DNA from: Rhabdophis nuchalis
Taxonomy: Eukaryota > Chordata > Lepidosauria > Squamata > Natricidae
Length of the DNA: 64,000 nt
Assembly: GCA_039707465.1 (NCBI GenBank)
Contig: CM077649.1
Coordinates: 11,406,501-11,470,500 of the forward strand
Reading direction: 5' to 3'
Position 1 is the first letter of the stretch. Every line of letters begins with the position of its first letter. This document shows, one piece after another, positions 17,178 through 58,619 of this stretch. The notes under the pieces were generated by a model, which saw only the letters and a program-made list of their open reading frames with translations, was not told where the DNA came from and ran no database searches. The translations under genes and the position numbers were made by a program.

Positions 17178-17448
17178 TTTAAACAATGAGACCGTCTGCT
17201 GCCCCATACATCCCTACCACCAATTCGCTCTCACAGAGAGGGTCTGCTCCGGGTGCCGTCAACCGGGCAATGCCGGTTGGCGACGCCCAGGGGAAGAGCC
17301 TTCTCTGTGGTGGACCCAACCCTCTGGAACGATCTACCTCCCAAACTCCGTGTCATCTCGGACCTCCGCCTGTTCCGCCAGGGTTTAAAAATGCACTTCT
17401 TCCACCTAGCCGGCCTGGCATGATTTTACTCGACACTGCACTGCTTTT
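17178..17448 (+). pseudogene. L2-like LINE C-terminal coding end, upstream of L1 insertion
   Basis: Plus-strand L2 RT tail: reading frames around LTERVCSG, GDAQGKSLLCGG and the equivalent of WNDLPPKLR...LFR. It is cut by the L1-derived element at a 15-bp target duplication and resumes at 19472. Confidence 0.8.
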
Positions 17449-17463
17449 AGTTATCAAAGTTTT
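17449..17463. repeat. left 15-bp target-site duplication of the L1-derived insertion
   Basis: AGTTATCAAAGTTTT here is repeated at 19457-19471. Joining the flanks restores a continuous L2 3' end. Confidence 0.9.
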
Positions 17464-17743
17464 TTTTTTTTATATTAAAAAAGTTTTATTGAGTTTACAT
17501 TTTTTTCGTGGGGTAGGGTAAGGGATACATAGAAATTTTGAGAGTGGTCACGTCAAAGTCGTCGGCTCCTCCGGGACCTCAAGTTACATTATTAAAAAGA
17601 AAGAAAAGAAACATTTCACATAACACTACAAGCTGGGAGCAAGTACATATTCCTAAATTTTTCAGTTATATACTGTCAGTCAATTACAAAAATCCAGATA
17701 CAAATATCATACAATATTACTCAAAAAAAAAACCAGGGCAAAG

Positions 17744-18592
17744 TTATTTTTTAGATCTAAGTCTTTTGGCAATTGTATCTTCCACCTTCTCCCCCGGGCC
17801 CCCAGCGGGCGGGGCCATGGCTCCCCCTGCCCCCCCTGGATCTTCTCCCAGGACAGAGGAATGTTTTTTAAGAAAGGCTTCCGCCTCAGCAACTGTTTTA
17901 ATCTTCACTCTTCCTCCTTCCCAGAACACCAGCATCCCTTCGGGTATCACCCACTTGAACCAGATCCCATGATCAAACAATGTTTTAGACAAGAAGGAAA
18001 ATTTCCTCCTCGCTTCTCTAATCTTTCTTGGGATCTGCTTCAAGATGGTAACCTCCTTTTGTTGGTAAATCATAGGACTCCCTCTTTGCGCCTTCAAGAT
18101 TTCTTCTCTGGTTGACCTTCTGACAAATTTAACATGTATCTCTCTGGGTACTTCATTCATCCTGGCATATGCAGAATTTATTCTGTAGACTAGGTCAATG
18201 TCCCCTCTGATCTCATCTTTAGGTTTATGTAAATAGTCTGCAATAATTGTACTCATAAGATCAGGGAGACATTCACCATCCATCTCAGAAACATTCTGAA
18301 ATCTCAAAAAATATGTCATCCTTTCCATATCTATCCTAGTCACATGCCCATTTATTTCCACAACCTCTTTAGAAACATTTTTAATCTCTCCCTTAGCCCC
18401 CTCCAGCCCCCCTTTCAATTCTTCATTCTTCTGTGTGTTCTCAAGCACTTGTTTTCGAGTGTCCAGTAATTCCTTTTTAAAATTGATATTTTCTGCCCTC
18501 TGGGCCTTAATTTCTAATACCAAATTTTGTATAACAGATTCAAGGGCAGTCATTCTTTGTTCAAGGCTTGCCAGCGTTGCTTCTTGTGCCAT
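17744..18592 (-). CDS. L1 ORF1p-like RNA-binding protein (282 aa, intact)
   Basis: Intact ORF starting MAQEATLASLEQRM. Residues about 5-95 form a coiled coil with heptad-like Leu/Ile/Val spacing (TALESVIQNLVLEI, ENTQKNEELKGGLEG). Residues about 100-180 resemble the ORF1p RRM, including YFLRFQNVSE, DIDLVYRINSAY and REIHVKFVRRSTREEIL. Residues about 185-240 resemble the C-terminal domain (KIREARRKFSFLSK, WFKWVIPEGMLVFWEGG). A Pro/Gly-rich linker and a basic tail (KRLRSKK) end it. In L1, ORF1p trimerises and coats its RNA as a nucleic-acid chaperone (family knowledge). The start was chosen because the ATG opens the coiled coil and is the first in frame. The absence of any ORF2 downstream is the notable feature. 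Confidence 0.9.
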   Translation of the reverse strand: MAQEATLASLEQRMTALESVIQNLVLEIKAQRAENINFKKELLDTRKQVLENTQKNEELKGGLEGAKGEIKNVSKEVVEINGHVTRIDMERMTYFLRFQNVSEMDGECLPDLMSTIIADYLHKPKDEIRGDIDLVYRINSAYARMNEVPREIHVKFVRRSTREEILKAQRGSPMIYQQKEVTILKQIPRKIREARRKFSFLSKTLFDHGIWFKWVIPEGMLVFWEGGRVKIKTVAEAEAFLKKHSSVLGEDPGGAGGAMAPPAGGPGEKVEDTIAKRLRSKK

Positions 18593-19456
18593 GATTAGCT
18601 ATTGAAATCCGAGCCAATAAAATGGCGTTTTTGGGGTGGGGCTGGTGAGGCAGATCAGGAGTCCAAAGTTCTCAGAGTTGTAGAGCTGCAGAATTCAGAA
18701 ACCAGAAGAGAAACACTTTTCCAACTCCACAGGTGTAATAACGAAGGTAATCCAGAAAAGAAAACACAAATCCAAAAGAAAAAAATTCTTCATCAATAAT
18801 TAGAGGAAGTCCAAGTCACAAAGAGACACTGGTAATTTTCCATAGGTCATAGTCAGTCGGGGACAAAGAGAAGCCATCTTCCACCGCCCAAACTCAGAGC
18901 CCGAGGGAGAGAGTGGTTAAAGAAAAGAAAAAAAACTGTTTCAGCCAGACCTAGAAACATAATTGCAAACAGACCGCAGAGTACTTTCCCTTGTTAAAGA
19001 CAGTCCGGATTAAAGGTTTCCGATTCCTCGCAACGAGGCATTTCCAAGTGCCGCTTTTAGTCCAAGGGGGTTTTTTTAGAAACAAACACCCCCCTCCAGT
19101 CCCTTTCAGCCCGGCTGACAGTACAAGAAAAAAAGTTTTAATCGCTCACTCTCCGCTCGCAGCTGAGGTCCCAAAAAGCCTCCCGACTCTTCCGATCATC
19201 TCTCTCCATGGAATTAAATGGTGCCGCCAACCTTTGGCGAAGGGAAAGCCCCCCGCAGCATGTCCTCTTCCGCCTAAGCCGAGGAGCAGGGTCGCTTTCC
19301 CCACTGCCGTGGGGGGGGGCTTCCCTGTCGAGCCGGCTTTACGGGAGAAGCCCCAAACAAAGGGCTTCTCGCCCCCGCGGGGGGGCAGGAAAAGGAGCAA
19401 AGCGGCGAGCGAACCCTAAGTTCGCCCGTCGCCGCTGGAGCCGGAACCGGAAGATC
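18593..19456 (-). promoter_or_regulatory. GC-rich 5' UTR / probable internal promoter of the half-L1
   Basis: The sequence upstream of ORF1 up to the target duplication becomes strongly CpG-rich towards the element's 5' end (GCGGCGACGGGCGAAC and GCGGGGGCGAGAAG on the element strand). L1 elements carry internal promoters in this position (established). Promoter activity here is inferred from position and composition only. Confidence 0.6.
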
Positions 19457-19471
19457 AGTTATCAAAGTTTT
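19457..19471. repeat. right 15-bp target-site duplication
   Basis: AGTTATCAAAGTTTT, identical to 17449-17463. Confidence 0.9.
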
Positions 19472-19641
19472 AATTCAGGGGTTTTAATTGGTTTTAGCGC
19501 AGGGTGGGTTAATTTAATTTAGTTTTAATGAATATTATTCTTGTATATATGTATTTATATTTTATATTCCCTGTGCGCCGCCCCGAGTCCCTTTGTGGTG
19601 AGATGGGTGCGGGTTATAAATGCGAATAAAATAAAATAAAA
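19472..19641 (+). mobile_element. L2-like 3' UTR, downstream of the L1 insertion
   Basis: Continuation of the L2 from 17178. Contains CCCTGTGCGCCGCCCCGAG, GGGTGCGGGTTATAAATGCG and an AATAAAATAAAA tail, the typical 3' end of this L2 family. Confidence 0.85.
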
Positions 19642-19644
19642 AAT

Positions 19645-21828: not shown

Positions 21829-21875
21829 CTTCCAACCCTTTGATTCTTAAGTTTGTATATACAAAGAAAGCTCCT

Positions 21876-22000
21876 TTCTCCTAGATGCTGCTTGGAGTGT
21901 CCAAACGCGGGTTATCCTCAGCTTGCTGCCCATTGGACTGAGTTTCACTTTGATGTGTAGCCACGCCTCTTGCCTCTGCATAGGGCCAGTTCTAAAAACT
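21876..22000 (+). repeat. DIRS left inverted terminal repeat
   Basis: Starts TTCTCCTAGATGCTGC and runs to AGTTCTAAAAAC. It is the complement of 27665-27781 with only a small indel near the outer end (CTTGG versus CGG). Confidence 0.95.
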
Positions 22001-22748
22001 CAGTTGCCCTTATCGGACGCGTCTGGGGAGTCTGCAGTCCTTTGCCAGCAATCTGACCTCCCCAGCAGTGAGTTAGTGTAGCCTTGTTGTTATTTTTGTG
22101 TGTAGTTGTGTTAGATAGGTGATTTTTTGTTTTCGTTCCTGTCTTCGTTGTCTTCGTTGCGCGGAGCGGGCTGTTCAAACCGCGGCCGTTTCCCACTTTT
22201 TCTGCGGAGCGGCTTGGCACTGGGAGGGCTTGCCAGCGGCTGCTGGTAAGCTTCTAAGGGGGCTAGGTAGCTAGATAGGACCCCCCAACTTGACTATCGG
22301 GGGTTTCCCTCCCTAGGGAAGCCTCTACTGAGGCTTTTCAGCCCGTTGTTTCCCCAGTGCCGGTTTGAGCTTAGGCGGCCGTTCGCAAAGGAAAAAAGGC
22401 GCGCGTTTTAAACTTGCCGCCATTTTTCTGCCGCAGCCCGACTCCTCTTCGCAGATCGCCGCTGCTTCGTTCCTGGGGTGGTTCTAGTTCTGGGAGTCCC
22501 GGACAGGATCCCCTGGGGCAGCAGAAGAGATCCTTCCCAGCGGCTGCAGGGAGATTGGCAGATTCAGTTGCCATTCCCTGGTCTACTCCAGCGCAGATCT
22601 GCAACGCCTGAGACTTTTGGGTCTGATTTTGGCGCCAAAACCAGGTTCCAGTTTCTTCTTGTTTTAAAGTGTATATTGTTTCTTCCCTGGTGGGATTGGG
22701 GTGCCTTGACTGGATTTAATTGTTTGTTCTTGTTCTTTCAGCCACTCC
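22001..22748 (+). promoter_or_regulatory. DIRS 5' untranslated region
   Basis: GC-rich leader between the left ITR and the ORF1 ATG. It should hold the promoter, but no specific element could be fixed. Confidence 0.5.
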
Positions 22749-24506
22749 ATGGCTGATCCCAGTGAGCAAACAGGAGAACCTGCCTCCAAGCGTAGCAAGA
22801 CCAACCCTGCTGCCAAGGGCGATTCTGCACCCTGTCCTGACAAGGGGAAGAGGCCTGCAGCCAAGGCCACCAAGGCTGATGAGAGACTGGCGGATAGACG
22901 GCTGAGGATTCTAGAGCAGCAATTCCAGAAGGCTCTCTCTGCCCGGGACAAGGCTGTGACAGATAAGACCCCCCCTGCCCCGCAGCTTCGTAGGGAGACC
23001 CAACCCATTCCCACTGGTGATGGGGATTTTGGGTTTTCCCCCAATCACTCAAGGGTTTCCCTTGCCTCTCCAGTCCCCTCAATGGAAGTGGAGCTGGAGG
23101 AGGAGGAACCAGAGGAGGAGGAGTCCTCCATGGTGGGGGAGGGGGAGGAGTCAGTGGAGGAGGAAGAGGAGGCTCCGGCCACTCCCATTTCTGCACCCGC
23201 TGAGACTGCCTTGCCCGCGGCCATGCAGGAGGTTGTGTCCAAGGCCATTTCGCAGGGCATCACGGATTGCATGAAGCAATTAGTGGCTTCCTTGCCTCTC
23301 CTTTCTACCCCCAAGCCCAGGGCACCTAGGAAGGTGGTTCCTGCCCAGGGGGGTGGCGTTTCCCCTTCTGCCTCTTCTGCAGTCAGCGAGGCATCCGAGG
23401 GGGAGGATGATGAGGAGGTGGTTACCCAGGGGGCTCCCGACCTTTCAGGGGATGAGAGCTCCACCCCGGAGGCCCCCGCTTCCAAGGGGCTGTTTAACCC
23501 CATCATGTTCAAGGCTATCTTGACCAAGGCTAGGGAGTCGGCCGTGCAGATGGGTCTACCGGCTCAATCTGATAAGAAGGCCTCTGATCAGGACAATGCC
23601 ATCGTCATCGGTCCTGGACACCCTGGGGCGGGTCTCTTTAGGGAACCTACACCTCCCCAAGAATTGGTGCCGGCCCCTCAGTTGTTCCTCGACATTATTC
23701 AGCGCCAGTGGGTTCAGCCCGCTACTATGGCACACCCCAGCGGCGTGGATAAAAAGCTGTACGCTGTTGAGGACGCTATGGAGACCATTCTGGCTCTCCC
23801 GCAGGTTGATGACCCCATTGTGTCTTTGACCTCCACATCCTCACTCCCGGCCGAGCTGGTGGAGGGGCTTAAGGCGGAGGACAGGCGGATGGAGAAGTCT
23901 TGTCACAAGACACACCAGGCCACTGCCTGGGCCATGAAGGCCTCGTCCTCTGCCTCGTACTTTAGTAGGGCAGCCCTATTCTGGCTCAGGAAGCTATTGG
24001 CCTCCTTGCCTGAGAGACAGGTTAGATCGAGACAAAGGGTCAATAAGATCATCGCTGCGGTGGAATATTCTTGCGACGCCTCGCTCAATTCCACAAAGTT
24101 TTCATCCAGGGCTCTAGCATCCAATGTCACCTCACGCCGTCTGCTGTGGCTCCGCCATTGGCAGGCGGACATGAAGGCTAAGTGGAAGTTGGCGTCGGCC
24201 CCCTTCAAGGGTGGCAAGCTCTTCGGCGAGGCCTTGGACTCCTTCCTAATCGAGTCCAAGGATAAGCGGAAGATTCTGCCGGCTGTCACCAAGAAGCAGG
24301 ACCGGAAGAATCAGTCTTCCTACCGTAGACAGCCCTTTCGGTCTACGGAGGCTCCCTCTACCTCGGGTGGGGCCTCCAGAACCTACCCCCAGGCCCAAGA
24401 TCGTTCCCAGGACAGGCCGACCTACAGGGACAGGTCCAGGTTCCAGGGTCAGCGTAGGCCCTTCAAGGGTGGTCAGGCCAACCGTCCCTTCAAGAAGAGC
24501 AAGTGA
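22749..24506 (+). CDS. DIRS ORF1, Gag-like protein (585 aa, intact)
   Basis: Intact ORF starting MADPSEQTGEPASKRSK. Residues about 1-60 are Lys/Pro-rich. Residues about 110-150 form a very acidic Glu/Ser tract. Residues about 230-300 include LFNPIMFKAILTKARES. The conserved core at about 325-515 has KLYAVEDAMETILALP, HKTHQATAWAMKASSSASYF, ALFWLRKLLASLP and LLWLRHWQADMKAKWKLA. The end is Arg/Gln-rich. Such DIRS ORF1 cores are homologous to the alpha-specific C-terminal region of mammalian LAP2alpha (TMPO), reported as co-opted from a DIRS-type element. The protein is presumed to be structural and RNA-binding. It overlaps the downstream ORF by about 140 bp in another frame. The decayed copy at 44.0-47.0 kb has the same core. 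Confidence 0.92.
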   Translation: MADPSEQTGEPASKRSKTNPAAKGDSAPCPDKGKRPAAKATKADERLADRRLRILEQQFQKALSARDKAVTDKTPPAPQLRRETQPIPTGDGDFGFSPNHSRVSLASPVPSMEVELEEEEPEEEESSMVGEGEESVEEEEEAPATPISAPAETALPAAMQEVVSKAISQGITDCMKQLVASLPLLSTPKPRAPRKVVPAQGGGVSPSASSAVSEASEGEDDEEVVTQGAPDLSGDESSTPEAPASKGLFNPIMFKAILTKARESAVQMGLPAQSDKKASDQDNAIVIGPGHPGAGLFREPTPPQELVPAPQLFLDIIQRQWVQPATMAHPSGVDKKLYAVEDAMETILALPQVDDPIVSLTSTSSLPAELVEGLKAEDRRMEKSCHKTHQATAWAMKASSSASYFSRAALFWLRKLLASLPERQVRSRQRVNKIIAAVEYSCDASLNSTKFSSRALASNVTSRRLLWLRHWQADMKAKWKLASAPFKGGKLFGEALDSFLIESKDKRKILPAVTKKQDRKNQSSYRRQPFRSTEAPSTSGGASRTYPQAQDRSQDRPTYRDRSRFQGQRRPFKGGQANRPFKKSK

Positions 24507-27465
24507 CCCCTGGGGGATCCCTCCCATAGGGGGACGCCTACAGCAATATGCGTCCACGTGGGAGGCGACCACGACGGACGCCTGGGTCCGGAATGTGGTC
24601 CGACACGGCCTCACCCTCGACTTTCTATCCTTTCCCCCGCGGAGATTCATCCGCTGCCCCCTTCCCAGGTCCCCGCACAAGCAACAGCTCATGAGGGCGG
24701 AGATCGGTCACCTACTGGAGATAGCGGCCATAGAAGCGGTGCCGGGGGGGCAGGAGGGCAAGGGGTTTTATTCCATCCTCTTCCTAGTCCCCAAGTCATC
24801 GGGGGGGGGGGTCAGGGCCATTCTGGACTTGAAGAAGCTGAACCGGTATCTGCAATACAAGCGCTTCAAGATGCAATCCCTCCAGACGATCCTGGGATGC
24901 ATTCGACAGAACGACTTCCTGACCTCGATAGACCTGAAGGAGGCGTATCTGCACATTCCCATCCACCCGGCGCATCGCAGATACTTGAGGTTTCAGTTCG
25001 CCGGCCAGCACTTCCAGTACAAGGCCCTACCTTTCGGCTTGTCATCGGCTCCAAGGACCTTCACGAAGGTCCTCTCCGTAGTGGCGGCGCATCTTCGAGC
25101 CAGACCTGTGCGTTTGGTTTGTTACTTGGACGATATCCTGTTGATGTCACCTTCCAGGGACCAGGCCCTGAAGGACTTGGACTGCACCATCCGCTCCCTG
25201 GAGGACCACGGGTTCTCGGTGAATCGGGAGAAGAGTCACATGCAGCCCACCCTCTCCATACTTCATCTGGGTGCCGTCATCGACTCGAAGACCTGCAAAG
25301 TCTTTCTTTCACAGGAGCGCATCTGCAGCATTGTGAAGTTGGTGGGGTTGGTCCAGAATTCCAGACTGGTCCCACTTGTGACGCTTTCCCAACTGTTGGG
25401 GAAGCTGATCTCGTGCATAGCCATTGTTCCCTGGGCCCGCCTGCACGCACGGGAGCTACAATGGTTTCTGCTTCCTTTTCAACGACGCAAGATCAGCAAC
25501 TCCAGGAGACGGGTGACGGTCCCACCCCCAGTGCTTCGGTCCCTCAGGTGGTGGAGGTCTCCCGCCCTAAGAGGGGTCCCCCTTCAAGGAGCCAGACCGT
25601 GTCACCATCACGACGGACGCCAGCCTTTATGGCTGGGGAGCTCATCTGCATCACCATGTGGCCCAGGGCAGATGGTCTCAACGGGAGCTCGCCCACAACA
25701 TCAACTGGCTGGAGCTCCGGGCGGCCAGGCTGGCTCTGCGGCATTTCGGCAATCTCGTAGAAGGGTCCCATGTCCTTCTCCTGACGGACAACATCGCCAC
25801 CCGAGCATACGTGAACCACCAGGGAGGCACACAGTCGAGGGCGCTCATGACGGAGGCGGAGGCTCTGGGCAGGTGGGCAGAGAGGCATCTCCTGTCCCTG
25901 AGAGCGGACCACATCGCGGGCGAGGAGAACGTGACGGCGGACTGGTTGAGCAGGACCACCATCAACACCTCAGAGTGGCAGCTGCACCCGGATCTTTTCC
26001 AGCAGATTTCCCGGAGATTCGGCCTGCCCGTCCTGGACCTGTTCGCCAGCCCGCAGAACACGCACCTGCCAAGGTTCTTCACCCGTTTCCGGTGTCCGCA
26101 AGCAGAAGGGACAAACGCCCTCCGGTGTCGTTGGCCCGCAGGCCTGCTATACGCCTTCCCTCCTCTCCCGCTGCTTCCTCAGGTAGTCCGGAAAATCATC
26201 TCGGAGGGGGCGGAAGTCATCCTGGTCGCTCCCCATTGGCCCAGACGGTCCTGGTTCGCCGATCTAGTGGGACTGTCAGTAGAGAAGGCCTGGCGCATTC
26301 CTCCGAACCAGGTGTCACTAATACAAGGGGCCATTCGTCACCCGGACCCTCAGTGCTTCCAACTAGCCGTCTGGCACTTGAGGGGATCGTTCTGAGACGA
26401 ATGGGCTATTCGGACAAGGTGATAAGAACGATCCAGGCTTCCAGGCGTCCTGCCACCGTTCGCATTTACGAGACTACATGGTCCACCTTCTCTACCTGGT
26501 GCCGTCCCAGGCACATCGCTGCGGCTGAGGCCTCCACACCTCAGGTGATGGACTTCTTGCAGGAGGGTTTGGACAAGGGGCTCGCCCCCAATACCCTGAG
26601 AAGGCAGGTGGCTGCTCTCGCTACCATCCTGTCGCCCGGTGGGTCCCTGCCGCTCAGCAGACATCCAGGGGTTCGTGGTTTCCTGAAAGGGGCCTCGAAC
26701 ATTCGGCCACAAACAGTCCATAGATATCCGACCTGGGACTTACCCTTCGTCCTCCAGGCCCTGACTGAGGCGCCATTCGAACCATTGCGCTCCGTGTCAC
26801 TGCGCCACCTGACCTTGAAGACGGTGTTCCTCATAGCAATCACATCTGCAAGGCGAATTTCGGAACTCTCGGCCCTCTCCGTACGGGAGGACTTGTGCGT
26901 GGTCCACGCAAACAGAGTGGTTCTCAGACTAGACCCGACCTTTGTGCCCAAGGTCAACTCCTTGTTTCACAGATCCCAGGAGCTCGTCCTACCTGACTTT
27001 TGTCCGCACCCCTCTCACCCCAGGGAAAGGAGGTGGCACAAGTTGGACGTTCGCAGGGCGGTGCGGATGTACAAGAAGAGAACGGCTGAATTCCGCAAGT
27101 CAGAGTCCTTCTTCGTTTCCTTTCAGCCGGTGTCCATGGGTCGCAAGGTCACGTCTACCACGATTGGGCGCTGGCTGCGTGCCTGCATTACACTGGCATA
27201 TGAGCACCGGTCCAGAGCTGTACCTCCACGTATTACCGCTCACTCCACCAGGAGCGCTGCAACCACGGCTGCTTGGGCCACCCAGGCCCCCATAGACGAG
27301 ATCTGCAGGGCCGCTACGTGGTCCTCGCCTGTGCTGTTTATCAGACACTACAAGCTGGACGTATTTGCATCCTCGGAGGCCTCCTTCGGCAGACGTGTTC
27401 TCCAGAGGGTCCTTGATGCTCCCAGTTCCCACTCAGACGAATCTCCCCTCCCAGGGACAGCATAG
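24367..27465 (+). CDS. DIRS reverse transcriptase, and tyrosine recombinase in the same open frame (1032 aa frame)
   Basis: One open frame carrying two domains that are not contiguous in function. Residues about 50-395 are the RT: GFYSILFLVPKSSGG, ILDLKKLNRYL, SIDLKEAYLHIPIHP, KALPFGLSSAPRTF and the catalytic YLDD at 253-256. After a C5 run at 25578-25582 the biologically meaningful frame moves to the next frame (RNase H), while this frame stays open as nonsense (PQHQLAGAPGGQ and so on). From Met 679 (position 26401) this frame encodes the tyrosine recombinase. Its likely catalytic residues are Arg 830 (SARRISEL), His 959 and Arg 962 (AHSTRSAA) and Tyr 995 (FIRHYKLD). A long overlap between the RT/RH and YR frames is known in DIRS elements. 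Joining RT to YR in a single frame looks like the result of a one-base C gain. Confidence 0.9.
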   Translation: MGPPEPTPRPKIVPRTGRPTGTGPGSRVSVGPSRVVRPTVPSRRASDPWGIPPIGGRLQQYASTWEATTTDAWVRNVVRHGLTLDFLSFPPRRFIRCPLPRSPHKQQLMRAEIGHLLEIAAIEAVPGGQEGKGFYSILFLVPKSSGGGVRAILDLKKLNRYLQYKRFKMQSLQTILGCIRQNDFLTSIDLKEAYLHIPIHPAHRRYLRFQFAGQHFQYKALPFGLSSAPRTFTKVLSVVAAHLRARPVRLVCYLDDILLMSPSRDQALKDLDCTIRSLEDHGFSVNREKSHMQPTLSILHLGAVIDSKTCKVFLSQERICSIVKLVGLVQNSRLVPLVTLSQLLGKLISCIAIVPWARLHARELQWFLLPFQRRKISNSRRRVTVPPPVLRSLRWWRSPALRGVPLQGARPCHHHDGRQPLWLGSSSASPCGPGQMVSTGARPQHQLAGAPGGQAGSAAFRQSRRRVPCPSPDGQHRHPSIREPPGRHTVEGAHDGGGGSGQVGREASPVPESGPHRGRGERDGGLVEQDHHQHLRVAAAPGSFPADFPEIRPARPGPVRQPAEHAPAKVLHPFPVSASRRDKRPPVSLARRPAIRLPSSPAASSGSPENHLGGGGSHPGRSPLAQTVLVRRSSGTVSREGLAHSSEPGVTNTRGHSSPGPSVLPTSRLALEGIVLRRMGYSDKVIRTIQASRRPATVRIYETTWSTFSTWCRPRHIAAAEASTPQVMDFLQEGLDKGLAPNTLRRQVAALATILSPGGSLPLSRHPGVRGFLKGASNIRPQTVHRYPTWDLPFVLQALTEAPFEPLRSVSLRHLTLKTVFLIAITSARRISELSALSVREDLCVVHANRVVLRLDPTFVPKVNSLFHRSQELVLPDFCPHPSHPRERRWHKLDVRRAVRMYKKRTAEFRKSESFFVSFQPVSMGRKVTSTTIGRWLRACITLAYEHRSRAVPPRITAHSTRSAATTAAWATQAPIDEICRAATWSSPVLFIRHYKLDVFASSEASFGRRVLQRVLDAPSSHSDESPLPGTA
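25583..26395 (+). CDS. DIRS RNase H and adjoining C-terminal domain, frameshifted from RT
   Basis: In the second frame, starting at FKEPDR directly after the C5 run. RNase H motifs are TITTDASLYGWGAH (catalytic Asp codon at 25616), NWLELRAARLAL (Glu), VLLLTDNIATRAYVN (Asp) and HIAGEENVTADWLSR. The following 130 residues, with PVLDLFASPQNTHLP and ILVAPHWPRRSWF, match the region described in DIRS elements as a methyltransferase-like (DAM) domain; that function is inferred only. Ends at a TGA six bases upstream of the recombinase Met. With one C fewer at 25578-25582, RT and RNase H would read continuously. The first ATG in this frame is at 25658, inside the RNase H domain, so it is not a likely true start. 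Confidence 0.85.
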   Translation, partial: FKEPDRVTITTDASLYGWGAHLHHHVAQGRWSQRELAHNINWLELRAARLALRHFGNLVEGSHVLLLTDNIATRAYVNHQGGTQSRALMTEAEALGRWAERHLLSLRADHIAGEENVTADWLSRTTINTSEWQLHPDLFQQISRRFGLPVLDLFASPQNTHLPRFFTRFRCPQAEGTNALRCRWPAGLLYAFPPLPLLPQVVRKIISEGAEVILVAPHWPRRSWFADLVGLSVEKAWRIPPNQVSLIQGAIRHPDPQCFQLAVWHLRGSF

Positions 27466-27476
27466 CGTTGGCATGT

Positions 27477-27568
27477 CCCGCGTTTGGACACTCCAAGCAG
27501 CATCTAGGAGAATGACCATTGGTCTTACCTGTGAATGGTCTTTCTCTAGATGCTGCGGAGTGTCCAAA
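27477..27568. repeat. DIRS internal complementary region
   Basis: First part (CCCGCGTTTGGACACTCC to CTAGGAGAA) is the complement of the left end. The second part (GAGAATGACCATTGGTC to GAGTGTCCAAA) is the complement of the right end. They meet at GAGAA, the complement of the terminal TTCTC. In DIRS elements this region templates joining of the ends into a circle. It lies just after the recombinase stop at 27465. Confidence 0.93.
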
Positions 27569-27664
27569 TCCCACCCTGGGCGTGGTGGGAACTGGTCCCA
27601 TGTTTTGTTGAAGGTTAAGACTGGTGTTGTTCCAGTTGTTCTGCGTTTTTTCTGGTCTACCTTC

Positions 27665-27819
27665 GTTTTTAGAACTGGCCCTATGCAGAGGCAAGAGGCG
27701 TGGCTACACATCAAAGTGAAACTCAGTCCAATGGGCAGCAAGCTGAGGATAACCCGCGTTTGGACACTCCGCAGCATCTAGAGAAAGACCATTCACAGGT
27801 AAGACCAATGGTCATTCTC
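27665..27819 (+). repeat. DIRS right inverted terminal repeat with 3' extension
   Basis: 27665-27781 is the complement of the left ITR. 27782-27819 (AAGACCATTCACAGG to GTCATTCTC) is unique to the right end and is matched by the internal complementary region. Confidence 0.93.
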
Positions 27820-28091: not shown

Positions 28092-28949
28092 TACCAACTG
28101 TACGCTGATGACACTCAGCTGTACATATCCACCCCAGACCACCCCAACGATGCCGCCGAAGTGCTGTCCCGGTGTTTGGAAGCCGTACGGATCTGGATGG
28201 GTGGCAACAAACTCAAGCTCAACCCTGCCAAGACTGAGTGGCTGTGGTTTCCGGCACCCCGGTTCAGCCAGATTACTCCAACTCTGGCCATTGGGGGCGA
28301 AACACTGGCCCCCGTGGAGAGGGCGCGCAATTTGGGTGTCCTCCTGGATTCCCGGCTGTCCTTGGAGGACCATGTGGAGGCCGTGGCCAGGGGGGCGTTT
28401 CATCAGGTACGCCTGATGCGCCAATTGCGCCCCTTACTGGACCAGGCTGCCCTTCGCACAGTCACTCAAGCTCTCGTGACGTCCCGACTCGACTACTGTA
28501 ATGCTATCTACATGGGGCTTCCCTTGAGGTGCACTCGAAAGCTACAGCTAGTCCAAAACGCAGCCGCGCGGGTAATTACGGGAGCCACCAGATGCTCCCA
28601 CATAACACCGATCCTGCGCGAGCTACATTGGCTTCCTGTGGCCTTTCGGGTGCGCTTCAAGGTTTTGACGACCATCTTTAAAGCGCTCCATGGCTCGGGG
28701 CCTAGTTATATGCGAGACCGCCTCCTGCCCCATACATCCCTTAGACCGATCCGCTCCCACAGAGAGGGCCTTCTCAGGGTGCCGTCGGCCGGACAATGCC
28801 GACTGGCGACACCCAGGGAAAGAGCCTTCTCTGTGGCGGGCCCAGCCCTTTGGAACGACCTACCCCCTGAATTACGCACCATCACCGACCTCCGCCTCTT
28901 CCGCCAATGTCTAAAGACATACCTCTTCCAACAAGCCGACCTAGCCTAA
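28092..28949 (+). pseudogene. L2 reverse transcriptase, palm to C-terminus (fragment, uninterrupted)
   Basis: The frame opens inside the catalytic box, LYADDTQLYIS at about 28098-28130, typical of L2-clade RTs. It continues WLWFPAP, RNLGVLLDSRLSLEDHV, ALVTSRLDYCNAIYMGLP, LQLVQNAAARVITG, HITPILRELHWLPVAFRVRFK, FKALHGSGPSYM and ALWNDLPPELR to the stop. No internal stop in 286 codons suggests a fairly recent insertion. The endonuclease and the front of the RT are missing through 5' truncation, so it cannot act alone. Confidence 0.85.
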
Positions 28950-29150
28950 CCTCCCATGGGGACTTTTAGAAAGTTTTAAATTGGGTTTTTAATAATTTGG
29001 TTTTAGCATAGGATCAGGTAATTTAATATATATTTTAAATTATGTATTTATTTTGTATTTTTGTATATTTTTAAATTTCCTGTGCGCCTCCCTGGGTCCT
29101 CTGCGGAGAAGGGCGGGATATAAATATAAATAAAGAAAGAAAGTAAAGAA
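28092..29150 (+). mobile_element. L2-like LINE, 5'-truncated, long open RT end
   Basis: The coding part runs to 28949 and is followed by about 200 bp of 3' UTR with CCTGTGCGCCTCCCTGGG, GGGCGGGATATAAATA and a short AAAG/AAAT tail. It is one of the better-preserved L2 copies in the window. Confidence 0.88.
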
Positions 29151-57841: not shown

Positions 57842-58047
57842 CAGTGGTGGGTACCTACCGGTTTGGGCCAGTTTGGCCGAACCAGTAGTGATGTGGCAGC
57901 CTGGGTCGCTGGAACCGGCAGTGACCCAGGCCTGCCACGTCCCCGAACCTACCGGCACTGTAGGCACCGTCATCTTGGTTTTTTGCTTCTGCGCATGCGC
58001 AGAACAACTTTTATTGCATTGCGCATGCACGGACAGCTGGAAGATTT
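57842..58047 (+). mobile_element. CAGTGGTGGG-type MITE fragment, interrupted by half-L1
   Basis: Begins CAGTGGTGGGTACCTACCGG and runs into the target duplication of the half-L1. The right end was not found after the insertion. Confidence 0.65.
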
Positions 58048-58603
58048 TTTTTTTATATATTGCAAAAGTTTTATTGGTTTTTACAAATTTTTTCAGGTAG
58101 GATAGGGTAAGAGAAGTACAGAAATATTTTGAGAACTTTCACGTCGAGATCGTTGGCCCCTCCAGGGCTTCTTAATAAGACATTGGTAATACATTTTTCA
58201 ATAATACTACAAGGTGAAAATAAATGCATACATCATAAATTCTAAATTCTATGCTGGCAGTCGTGTACAAACATCCAGATAAAAGTTATACTGTATTAAT
58301 AAAAAGAAAAGTCATTTTTTAGATCTAAGTCTCTTGGCAATTGTGTCTTCTTGTTCTCCTTCCTGGCCCCCAGTGGGCGGGGCTGTGGCCCCCTCTGCCC
58401 CTCCTGGATCATCCCCCAGGGTAGAGGAATGTTTTTTAAGAAAGGCTTCCGCCTCAGCAACTGTTTTAATCCTTACTCTTCCTCCTTCCCAGAACACCAG
58501 CATCCCTTCTGGCATCGCCCACTTAAACCAAATCCCGTGTTTAAACAATTTTTTAGATAAGAAGGAATACTTCCTCCTCACCTCTCTAATCTTTTTTGGG
58601 ATC
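58048..58603 (-). mobile_element. half-L1 (HAL1-like) copy, 5'-truncated
   Basis: Same family as 17464-19456: poly-A, CAATAAAA, the same 3' UTR and ORF1 C-terminus. The target duplication is GACAGCTGGAAGATTT versus GACAGCAGGAAGATTT (15 of 16). Truncated within ORF1 at the KIREV segment. The ORF1 stop is followed directly by the same 3' UTR as in the longer copy, with no ORF2. Confidence 0.9.
58312..58581 (-). pseudogene. L1 ORF1p C-terminal fragment
   Basis: 89 open codons: RRKYSFLSKKLFKHGIWFKW, PEGMLVFWEGGRVRIKTVAE and a C-terminal KRLRSKK. This is the C-terminal domain of the ORF1p encoded at 17744-18592, with scattered substitutions. The coiled coil and most of the RRM are missing through 5' truncation; the ATG is accidental. 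Confidence 0.85.
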
Positions 58604-58619
58604 GACAGCAGGAAGATTT

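Follow-up and report, generated by a model that had tools for sequence, protein, structure and literature searches.

We found that the element at 17464–19456 of the window (the whole 64-kb stretch of DNA that was analysed) is very probably one copy of a half-L1 (HAL1-type) family, that is, an L1-derived non-LTR retrotransposon that consists of a 5′ UTR, ORF1 and a 3′ UTR with poly-A and that has lost ORF2. The element shows the features of HAL1s, namely an L1 ORF1p, no ORF2, poly-A together with target duplications, and membership of a multi-copy family with one junction, and the ORF2 with EN and RT that marks a complete L1 is absent from it. No report of a squamate half-L1 was found in the open literature searched, and as far as that literature shows, half-L1s in squamates would be new.

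Structure of the two copies in the window

The features of copy 1 and of the host repeat that surrounds it are as follows.

17188–17448, plus strand: 3′ part of the host CR1, interrupted by copy 1 and resuming at 19472 (empty-site alignment to 28714–29125)
17449–17463, no strand: target site duplication on the 3′ side of the element, AGTTATCAAAGTTTT, an exact match to 19457–19471
17464–17743, minus strand: 3′ UTR with AATAAA and poly-A tail, 280 nt, no frame open through
17744–18592, minus strand: ORF1, an L1 ORF1p (coiled coil, RRM, CTD) of 282 aa with profile and fold matches
18593–19456, minus strand: 5′ UTR, GC- and CpG-rich at its far end (presumed internal promoter), common to the scored genomic copies
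19457–19471, no strand: target site duplication on the 5′ side, in element orientation TT|AAAACTTTGATAACT
19472–19644, plus strand: 3′ end of the host CR1 on the other side of the insertion (empty-site alignment)

In element orientation, copy 1 runs from AAAACTTTGATAACT through a 5′ UTR of 864 nt (CpG observed/expected 0.73), the 282-aa ORF1 and a 280-nt 3′ UTR with a short poly-A to the duplication again. The two duplications are identical at 15 of 15 bases, the identity ends there, and they lie just outside coordinates 17464–19456. There is no ORF2; the ORF1 stop leads directly into the 3′ UTR and poly-A. The structure claimed in a preliminary description of this DNA (15-bp duplications, a 5′ UTR, an intact 282-aa L1 ORF1p-like ORF, a 3′ UTR, poly-A and no ORF2) was thus confirmed in every part. 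Copy 1 interrupts the 3′ end of a CR1, and when the empty site is reconstructed from the flanks and one duplication, it aligns across the join to the CR1 at 28714–29125 with 75% identity. The element alignment starts at base 4 in 32 of 40 genomic copies and at base 5 in three more; because most copies align only from base 4, the first three bases (GAT, 19454–19456) are probably outside the shared element.

A second copy lies at 58048–58603 and consists of the following features.

58032–58047, no strand: target site duplication of copy 2, 3′ side, 15/16 identical to 58604–58619
58048–58311, minus strand: 3′ UTR with AATAAA and poly-A, the same kind of 3′ UTR as in copy 1
58312–58603, minus strand: 5′-truncated ORF1, frame open to the stop, joining the 3′ UTR directly
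58604–58619, no strand: target site duplication of copy 2, 5′ side, in element orientation TT|AAATCTTCC...

Copy 2 has the same ORF1-3′ UTR junction as copy 1, and its 5′ end is cut inside ORF1. It has a target duplication of its own (15/16), which rules out a local duplication of copy 1, and sensitive searches of the 64-kb window found no third copy. In neither window copy is any frame open through the 3′ UTR, so no ORF2 begins there. The same observation, together with the indels at which the two copies differ in this part, rules out an origin by premature polyadenylation within a complete L1. The truncation point of copy 2 corresponds to 18035, which is inside an imperfect palindrome within ORF1 (17949–18049; 67% self-inverted match, E 5e-5); the palindrome could be a stop for reverse transcription.

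By profile comparison and fold comparison, the window ORF is an L1 ORF1p. A profile of 12 relatives matched human LINE-1 ORF1p (2ykp) with E 4.9e-12, and the next three matches were also LINE-1 ORF1p. A single-sequence Pfam scan of the window protein gave no significant L1 domain; Pfam Transposase_22 matched 6 of the 12 relatives (best E 0.0055) and left the window protein unmatched. The AlphaFold2 model of ORF1 is of modest confidence (mean pLDDT 69, pTM 0.39) and shows a long N-terminal helix, an RRM-like domain and a C-terminal domain. Foldseek placed human LINE-1 ORF1p at ranks 1–10 with E 1e-6 to 4e-5 and with low global TM-scores (0.27–0.37 by query), perhaps from a different placement of the long helix in the model. 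Every relative of ORF1 that carries a species name (10 of 10) comes from a squamate, with snakes as the closest: Ahaetulla, Crotalus, Micrurus, Erythrolamprus, Ophiophagus, Sphaerodactylus and four from Sceloporus. The window protein clusters with the snake ORF1s in a midpoint-rooted tree, which points to a squamate host, probably a snake. No ORF1 relatives were found in viral contigs.

Elsewhere in the window, positions 21874–27787 hold a near-complete element, which we take to be DIRS-like, with terminal inverted repeats at 21874–21999 and 27665–27787 (97.6%) and with frames of 585 aa (LAP2alpha-like domain) and 1032 aa (RVT_1).

Young copies across the genome and selection on ORF1

We searched the window's own assembly (1,917,733,297 bases, or 1.92 Gb, in 348 contigs) with the full 1993-bp element; of 7,666 first-look candidates, 40 were scored, among them the copy in the window. 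All 40 scored places are collinear ORF1-only copies of nearly the whole element, 96–100% identical, although a query of full length favours young, intact, collinear copies and these best 40 overstate how intact the family is as a whole. For L051 the single-piece alignment begins only at base 318. ORF2 was found in none of the 40, and the ORF1-3′ UTR junction is common to a multi-copy family. With squamate hosts for every named ORF1 relative and no exception to the ORF1-only plan among the scored copies, the earlier claim of a HAL1-like element in a squamate is supported.

Taking a score of at least 10 as the cut-off, we found a target duplication in 36 of the 40 copies (27 of 30 in the first batch and 9 of the remaining ten) and no convincing one in L024, L025, L029 and L051. 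Four of the 36 are doubtful, those of L009 and L045 lying away from a clean poly-A and those of L002 and L049 being A-rich. In the first 30 copies the target sites are TY|AARA-like: 23 of the 27 duplications begin with A and 24 come after a pyrimidine, counts that take in two sets of segmental duplicates. Duplications that begin with A after a pyrimidine fit the L1 endonuclease site. Of the 40 copies, 35 have an open ORF1 of at least 270 aa (29 of the first 30 and 6 of the other ten), and three of these 35 (L008, L014 and L028) have an altered end or no ATG.

L010, L013 and L016 (C1 at 1.9, 3.6 and 11.2 Mb) share one target duplication, and L021 and L022 (C13 at 18.2 and 19.6 Mb) share another; we took both sets as segmental duplications of the host genome or as assembly duplicates. 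With segmental duplicates removed, the first 30 copies represent 27 independent loci. The mean pairwise divergence across these 27 loci is 1.4% (0.45–2.6%), and the sampled copies are therefore young.

Purifying selection on ORF1 is clear between diverged copies and modest among young ones. Between the two window copies dN/dS is 0.30 (bootstrap 0.14–0.64) over 94 codons; third positions differ at 21 of 94, and the 3′ UTRs differ at 72 of 256 aligned sites with 31 gap columns besides. Among ten pairs of diverged ORF1s, four were unsaturated, with dN/dS of 0.24 (copy 1 and an older copy in L055), 0.23 (a pair within a second group of loci, described below) and 0.21 and 0.19 (second group and L056). 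The comparison of dN/dS across copies proposed in the preliminary description thus gives 0.19–0.30 where it is measurable.

In the 27 young copies, singletons outside CpG are rarer at ORF1 positions 1 and 2 than in the UTRs (31 of 14,958 and 92 of 28,054 cells; odds ratio 0.63, P 0.029), and at position 3 their rate is that of the UTRs. When whole ORF1 is compared to the UTRs, the singleton difference has P 0.096. For variants found in two or more young copies, the frequency in ORF1 is about a quarter of that in the UTRs (27 of 22,437 and 145 of 28,054, counted as cells and not as events). The synonymous excess has P 0.064 for singletons and P 0.081 for shared variants; the synonymous fraction is no higher in shared variants than in singletons (P 0.34). 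The preliminary description had offered either selection or a very young copy as the reason for the intact ORF1, and both apply here, given the 1.4% divergence and the purifying selection.

A second group of loci and the origin of the ORF1-only plan

We also searched with the ORF1 protein P0005, a query indifferent to the sequence downstream of ORF1; of 32,791 candidates, 134 were scored as hits. We fetched 14 of the 134 loci and read 13 of them downstream (L031–L042 and L056); in L055 the match ends before the ORF1 C-terminus, so this locus was excluded from the downstream reading. This revealed a second group, with ORF1 about 50% identical to that of the first, the group of copy 1, and with the ORF1-only plan in 11 of the 11 readable loci of the 13. 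In all 11, the ORF1 stop is followed by about 230–310 nt up to the end of a shared 3′ UTR and a poly-A or A-rich end, which L041 reaches after a later insertion. L035 and L040 are unreadable because a rearrangement or a further insertion has disrupted them. None of the 11 readable loci (13 read, of 134 scored hits) has an ORF2 that belongs to the element.

Pieces of ORF2 do lie beside some of these loci. When the 134 ORF1 hits are set against the 97 listed RT places, a single same-strand pair within 8 kb emerges (L054), and at L032/L054 an L1 RT follows the poly-A; however, L032 is flanked by a 114-bp direct repeat of an older L1's ORF2, 111 bases identical (376–489 and 2535–2648), and ORF2 is present on both sides. 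An L1 endonuclease likewise follows L042, which has a flanking repeat of 14 of 16 bases, with an older ORF1 before the insertion and the endonuclease after it. Because flanking direct repeats mark nested insertions, we assigned these ORF2 pieces to older L1s and rejected both loci as ORF2-bearing members. The 114-bp repeat of L032 far exceeds the 13–20 bp usual in the first group.

Three older first-group copies that reach the end of ORF1 were met by chance (window copy 2, L055 at 74% aa and L057 at 71% aa), and in each AATAAA stands 239–249 nt past the stop and there is no ORF2. Next to L012 there is a further chance find, this one of the second type; it becomes A-rich 217 nt past ORF1 and shows no ORF2 within 460 nt. 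The junction between ORF1 stop and 3′ UTR, whose sharing the preliminary description had made a point to check, is therefore present in the 40 scored copies, in the second group and in the three older chance copies. That description had also allowed that most copies might carry ORF2 at this junction, which the counts speak against (0 of 40 scored copies, from a full-length query that favours collinear ones, and 0 of 11 readable loci among the 13 read of 134 hits).

As a complete L1 for comparison we read L058 (C6:55174600–55181600), which has an ORF1 with one frameshift, an intact 1242-aa ORF2 and poly-A, and which lies within or beside another L1. The ORF1 of L058 shares no more than about 38–47% identity with the half-L1 ORF1s, and the L058 3′ UTR is absent from the 25 best rows of the 3′ UTR profile of either half-L1 group.

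First- and second-group ORF1s are 50–58% identical, L056 being closest, and dS between them is saturated. The first-group 3′ UTR profile matched L056 (E 7e-12) and L042 (5e-9) and, weakly, seven other second-group members (E 0.003–0.17), with L036 not listed and the best of 225 decoys, which were pieces of fetched flanks, at 1.5. Conversely, the second-group 3′ UTR profile matched L056 (2e-13) and three of four first-group 3′ UTRs (5e-5 to 1e-3), with the best decoy at 0.74. The 5′ UTRs match in 5 of 8 second-group loci tested (L036, E 6.6e-17; L035, 3.7e-16; L039, 2.5e-13; L032, 7.9e-13; L042, 8e-7); in the other three there was no significant match, L037 being not significant and L033 and L034 giving no hit. 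In a midpoint-rooted tree of 21 ORF1s, both groups fall together with L056, P0001 and P0002 (support 100/99), and the ORF1 of the L1 with an intact ORF2 from the same genome falls outside. Because the UTRs are detectably homologous and the ORF1s form a joint clade that excludes the complete L1, ORF2 was probably lost once, before the split of the two groups, and a long life as a half-L1 would have followed.

On balance we lean towards the view that the ORF1-only lineage arose once in a squamate ancestor and has been a stable L1 parasite since, the groups being 50% apart and ORF1 being under purifying selection. The lineage possibly originated before the split from Ahaetulla-like snakes; P0003–P0005 are sister to it. 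A separate origin of half-L1s in each group from related complete L1s, which would make them short-lived derivatives and not one old lineage, is unlikely. Mammalian HAL1s are said to have arisen independently several times (PMC5753468), and the saturated dS between the groups could hide many events; however, the ORF1 stop joins a 3′ UTR that is detectably homologous between the groups via the intermediate L056, the 5′ UTRs agree in the majority of loci tested (5 of 8), and the ORF1s form one clade without a known ORF2-bearing member (13 of 134 ORF1 hits read downstream).

Other origins of the copies themselves are weaker still. We regard it as very unlikely that they are by-products of a complete L1 with these UTRs from which splicing or internal deletion repeatedly removes ORF2, each copy being dead on arrival. 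Spliced L1 mRNAs do retrotranspose (PMC5860796), and the downstream reading covers 13 of the 134 ORF1-protein hits; nevertheless, the analysis, in which L058 was the only L1 with intact ORF2 to be read, turned up no complete L1 carrying these UTRs, L058 is remote in both its 3′ UTR (outside the 25 best profile rows) and its ORF1 (about 38–47%), and a same-strand RT lies within 8 kb of 1 of the 134 ORF1 hits (97 RT hits compared), which is a nested insertion. That shared variants are about four times rarer in ORF1 also speaks against by-products, but selection on a complete parent could give the same result, so this is not decisive. More improbable again is descent of the copies, as processed pseudogenes, from a host gene that was domesticated from an L1 ORF1, as L1TD1 was in placental mammals. 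UTRs, poly-A and target duplications would be expected of a retrocopied mRNA too, and there is an amplified intact 299-aa ORF1 frame on C14, yet the 40 scored copies carry a GC-rich 5′ UTR with homologous 5′ UTRs in the second group, their mean divergence is 1.4%, and the C14 copy itself is followed by a 3′ UTR of the same kind and an A-rich end. We thus retain a half-L1 family as the classification of the copies.

The C14 frame belongs to a cluster at 6.61–8.09 Mb, where eight hits of equal or nearly equal score fall on ORF1 in a 299-aa open frame within 1.5 Mb, one of them in L056. This cluster is probably a segmentally amplified ORF1 of the intermediate type; it could be just duplication, or it could reflect a host role.

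Comparison with known elements and mobilisation

HAL1 is described as a non-autonomous L1 derivative that encodes only ORF1p and that arose several times in mammals (PMC5753468), with nearly 2,100 copies in human (PMC5322556). In guinea pig, the coding capacity of HAL1 ORF1 was kept for about 29–44 Myr, which is taken as a need for both ORF1p in cis and ORF2p in trans (PMC3627910). SpIREs, which lose parts of the 5′ UTR or ORF1, are described as dead ends (PMC5860796), and L1TD1 as a host gene of placental mammals built from two ORF1 copies (PMC4161310).

Like mammalian HAL1s, the squamate element is L1-derived, encodes only ORF1p, has poly-A and target duplications, and presumably uses L1 EN and RT in trans. 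In contrast to the HAL1s of those descriptions, it has a squamate host and an ORF1 clade of its own beside snake L1-type ORF1s, and its two groups, about 50% identical in ORF1, share a plan and traces of UTRs, suggesting a long-lived, radiating lineage. Because mammalian HAL1s are said to have arisen several times, descent from mammalian HAL1 families would not be expected. The half-L1 shares with L058 a homologous ORF1p and L1 ancestry, whereas L058 has a 1242-aa ORF2, a 3′ UTR without detected likeness and an ORF1 outside the half-L1 clade. SpIREs are likewise L1-derived copies missing an internal part; in the half-L1, however, the 5′ UTR and ORF1 are complete, the family is amplified and ORF1 shows selection. 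L1TD1 is also a protein derived from L1 ORF1 and kept by selection, but the half-L1 is a mobile, multi-copy element.

A half-L1 that keeps its ORF1 intact under selection amounts to a natural experiment in which the two L1 proteins are uncoupled. It would imply that ORF2p can be borrowed, whereas the element has to make ORF1p in cis or at any rate gains from doing so. If the single old lineage is true, then ORF1p, not ORF2p, is the part that an L1 RNA must make for itself. An apparently old and recently active family outside mammals would show that the half-L1 niche is not restricted to mammals, and it offers a second animal group for testing cis-preference.

Judging by the poly-A, the target sites and the duplications, which point to L1 as the supplier of EN and RT, the half-L1 family is presumably mobilised in trans by L1. 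Half-L1 RNA would be transcribed from its own 5′ UTR (presumed internal promoter), the half-L1 ORF1p would coat its own RNA in cis, and the EN and RT of a complete L1 would copy this RNA by target-primed reverse transcription at TY|AARA-like sites. A search of the genome for L1 RT gave four frames of exactly 1242 aa among the places listed, one of them that of L058, and L1 ORF2 potentially able to supply EN and RT is thus present in the genome.
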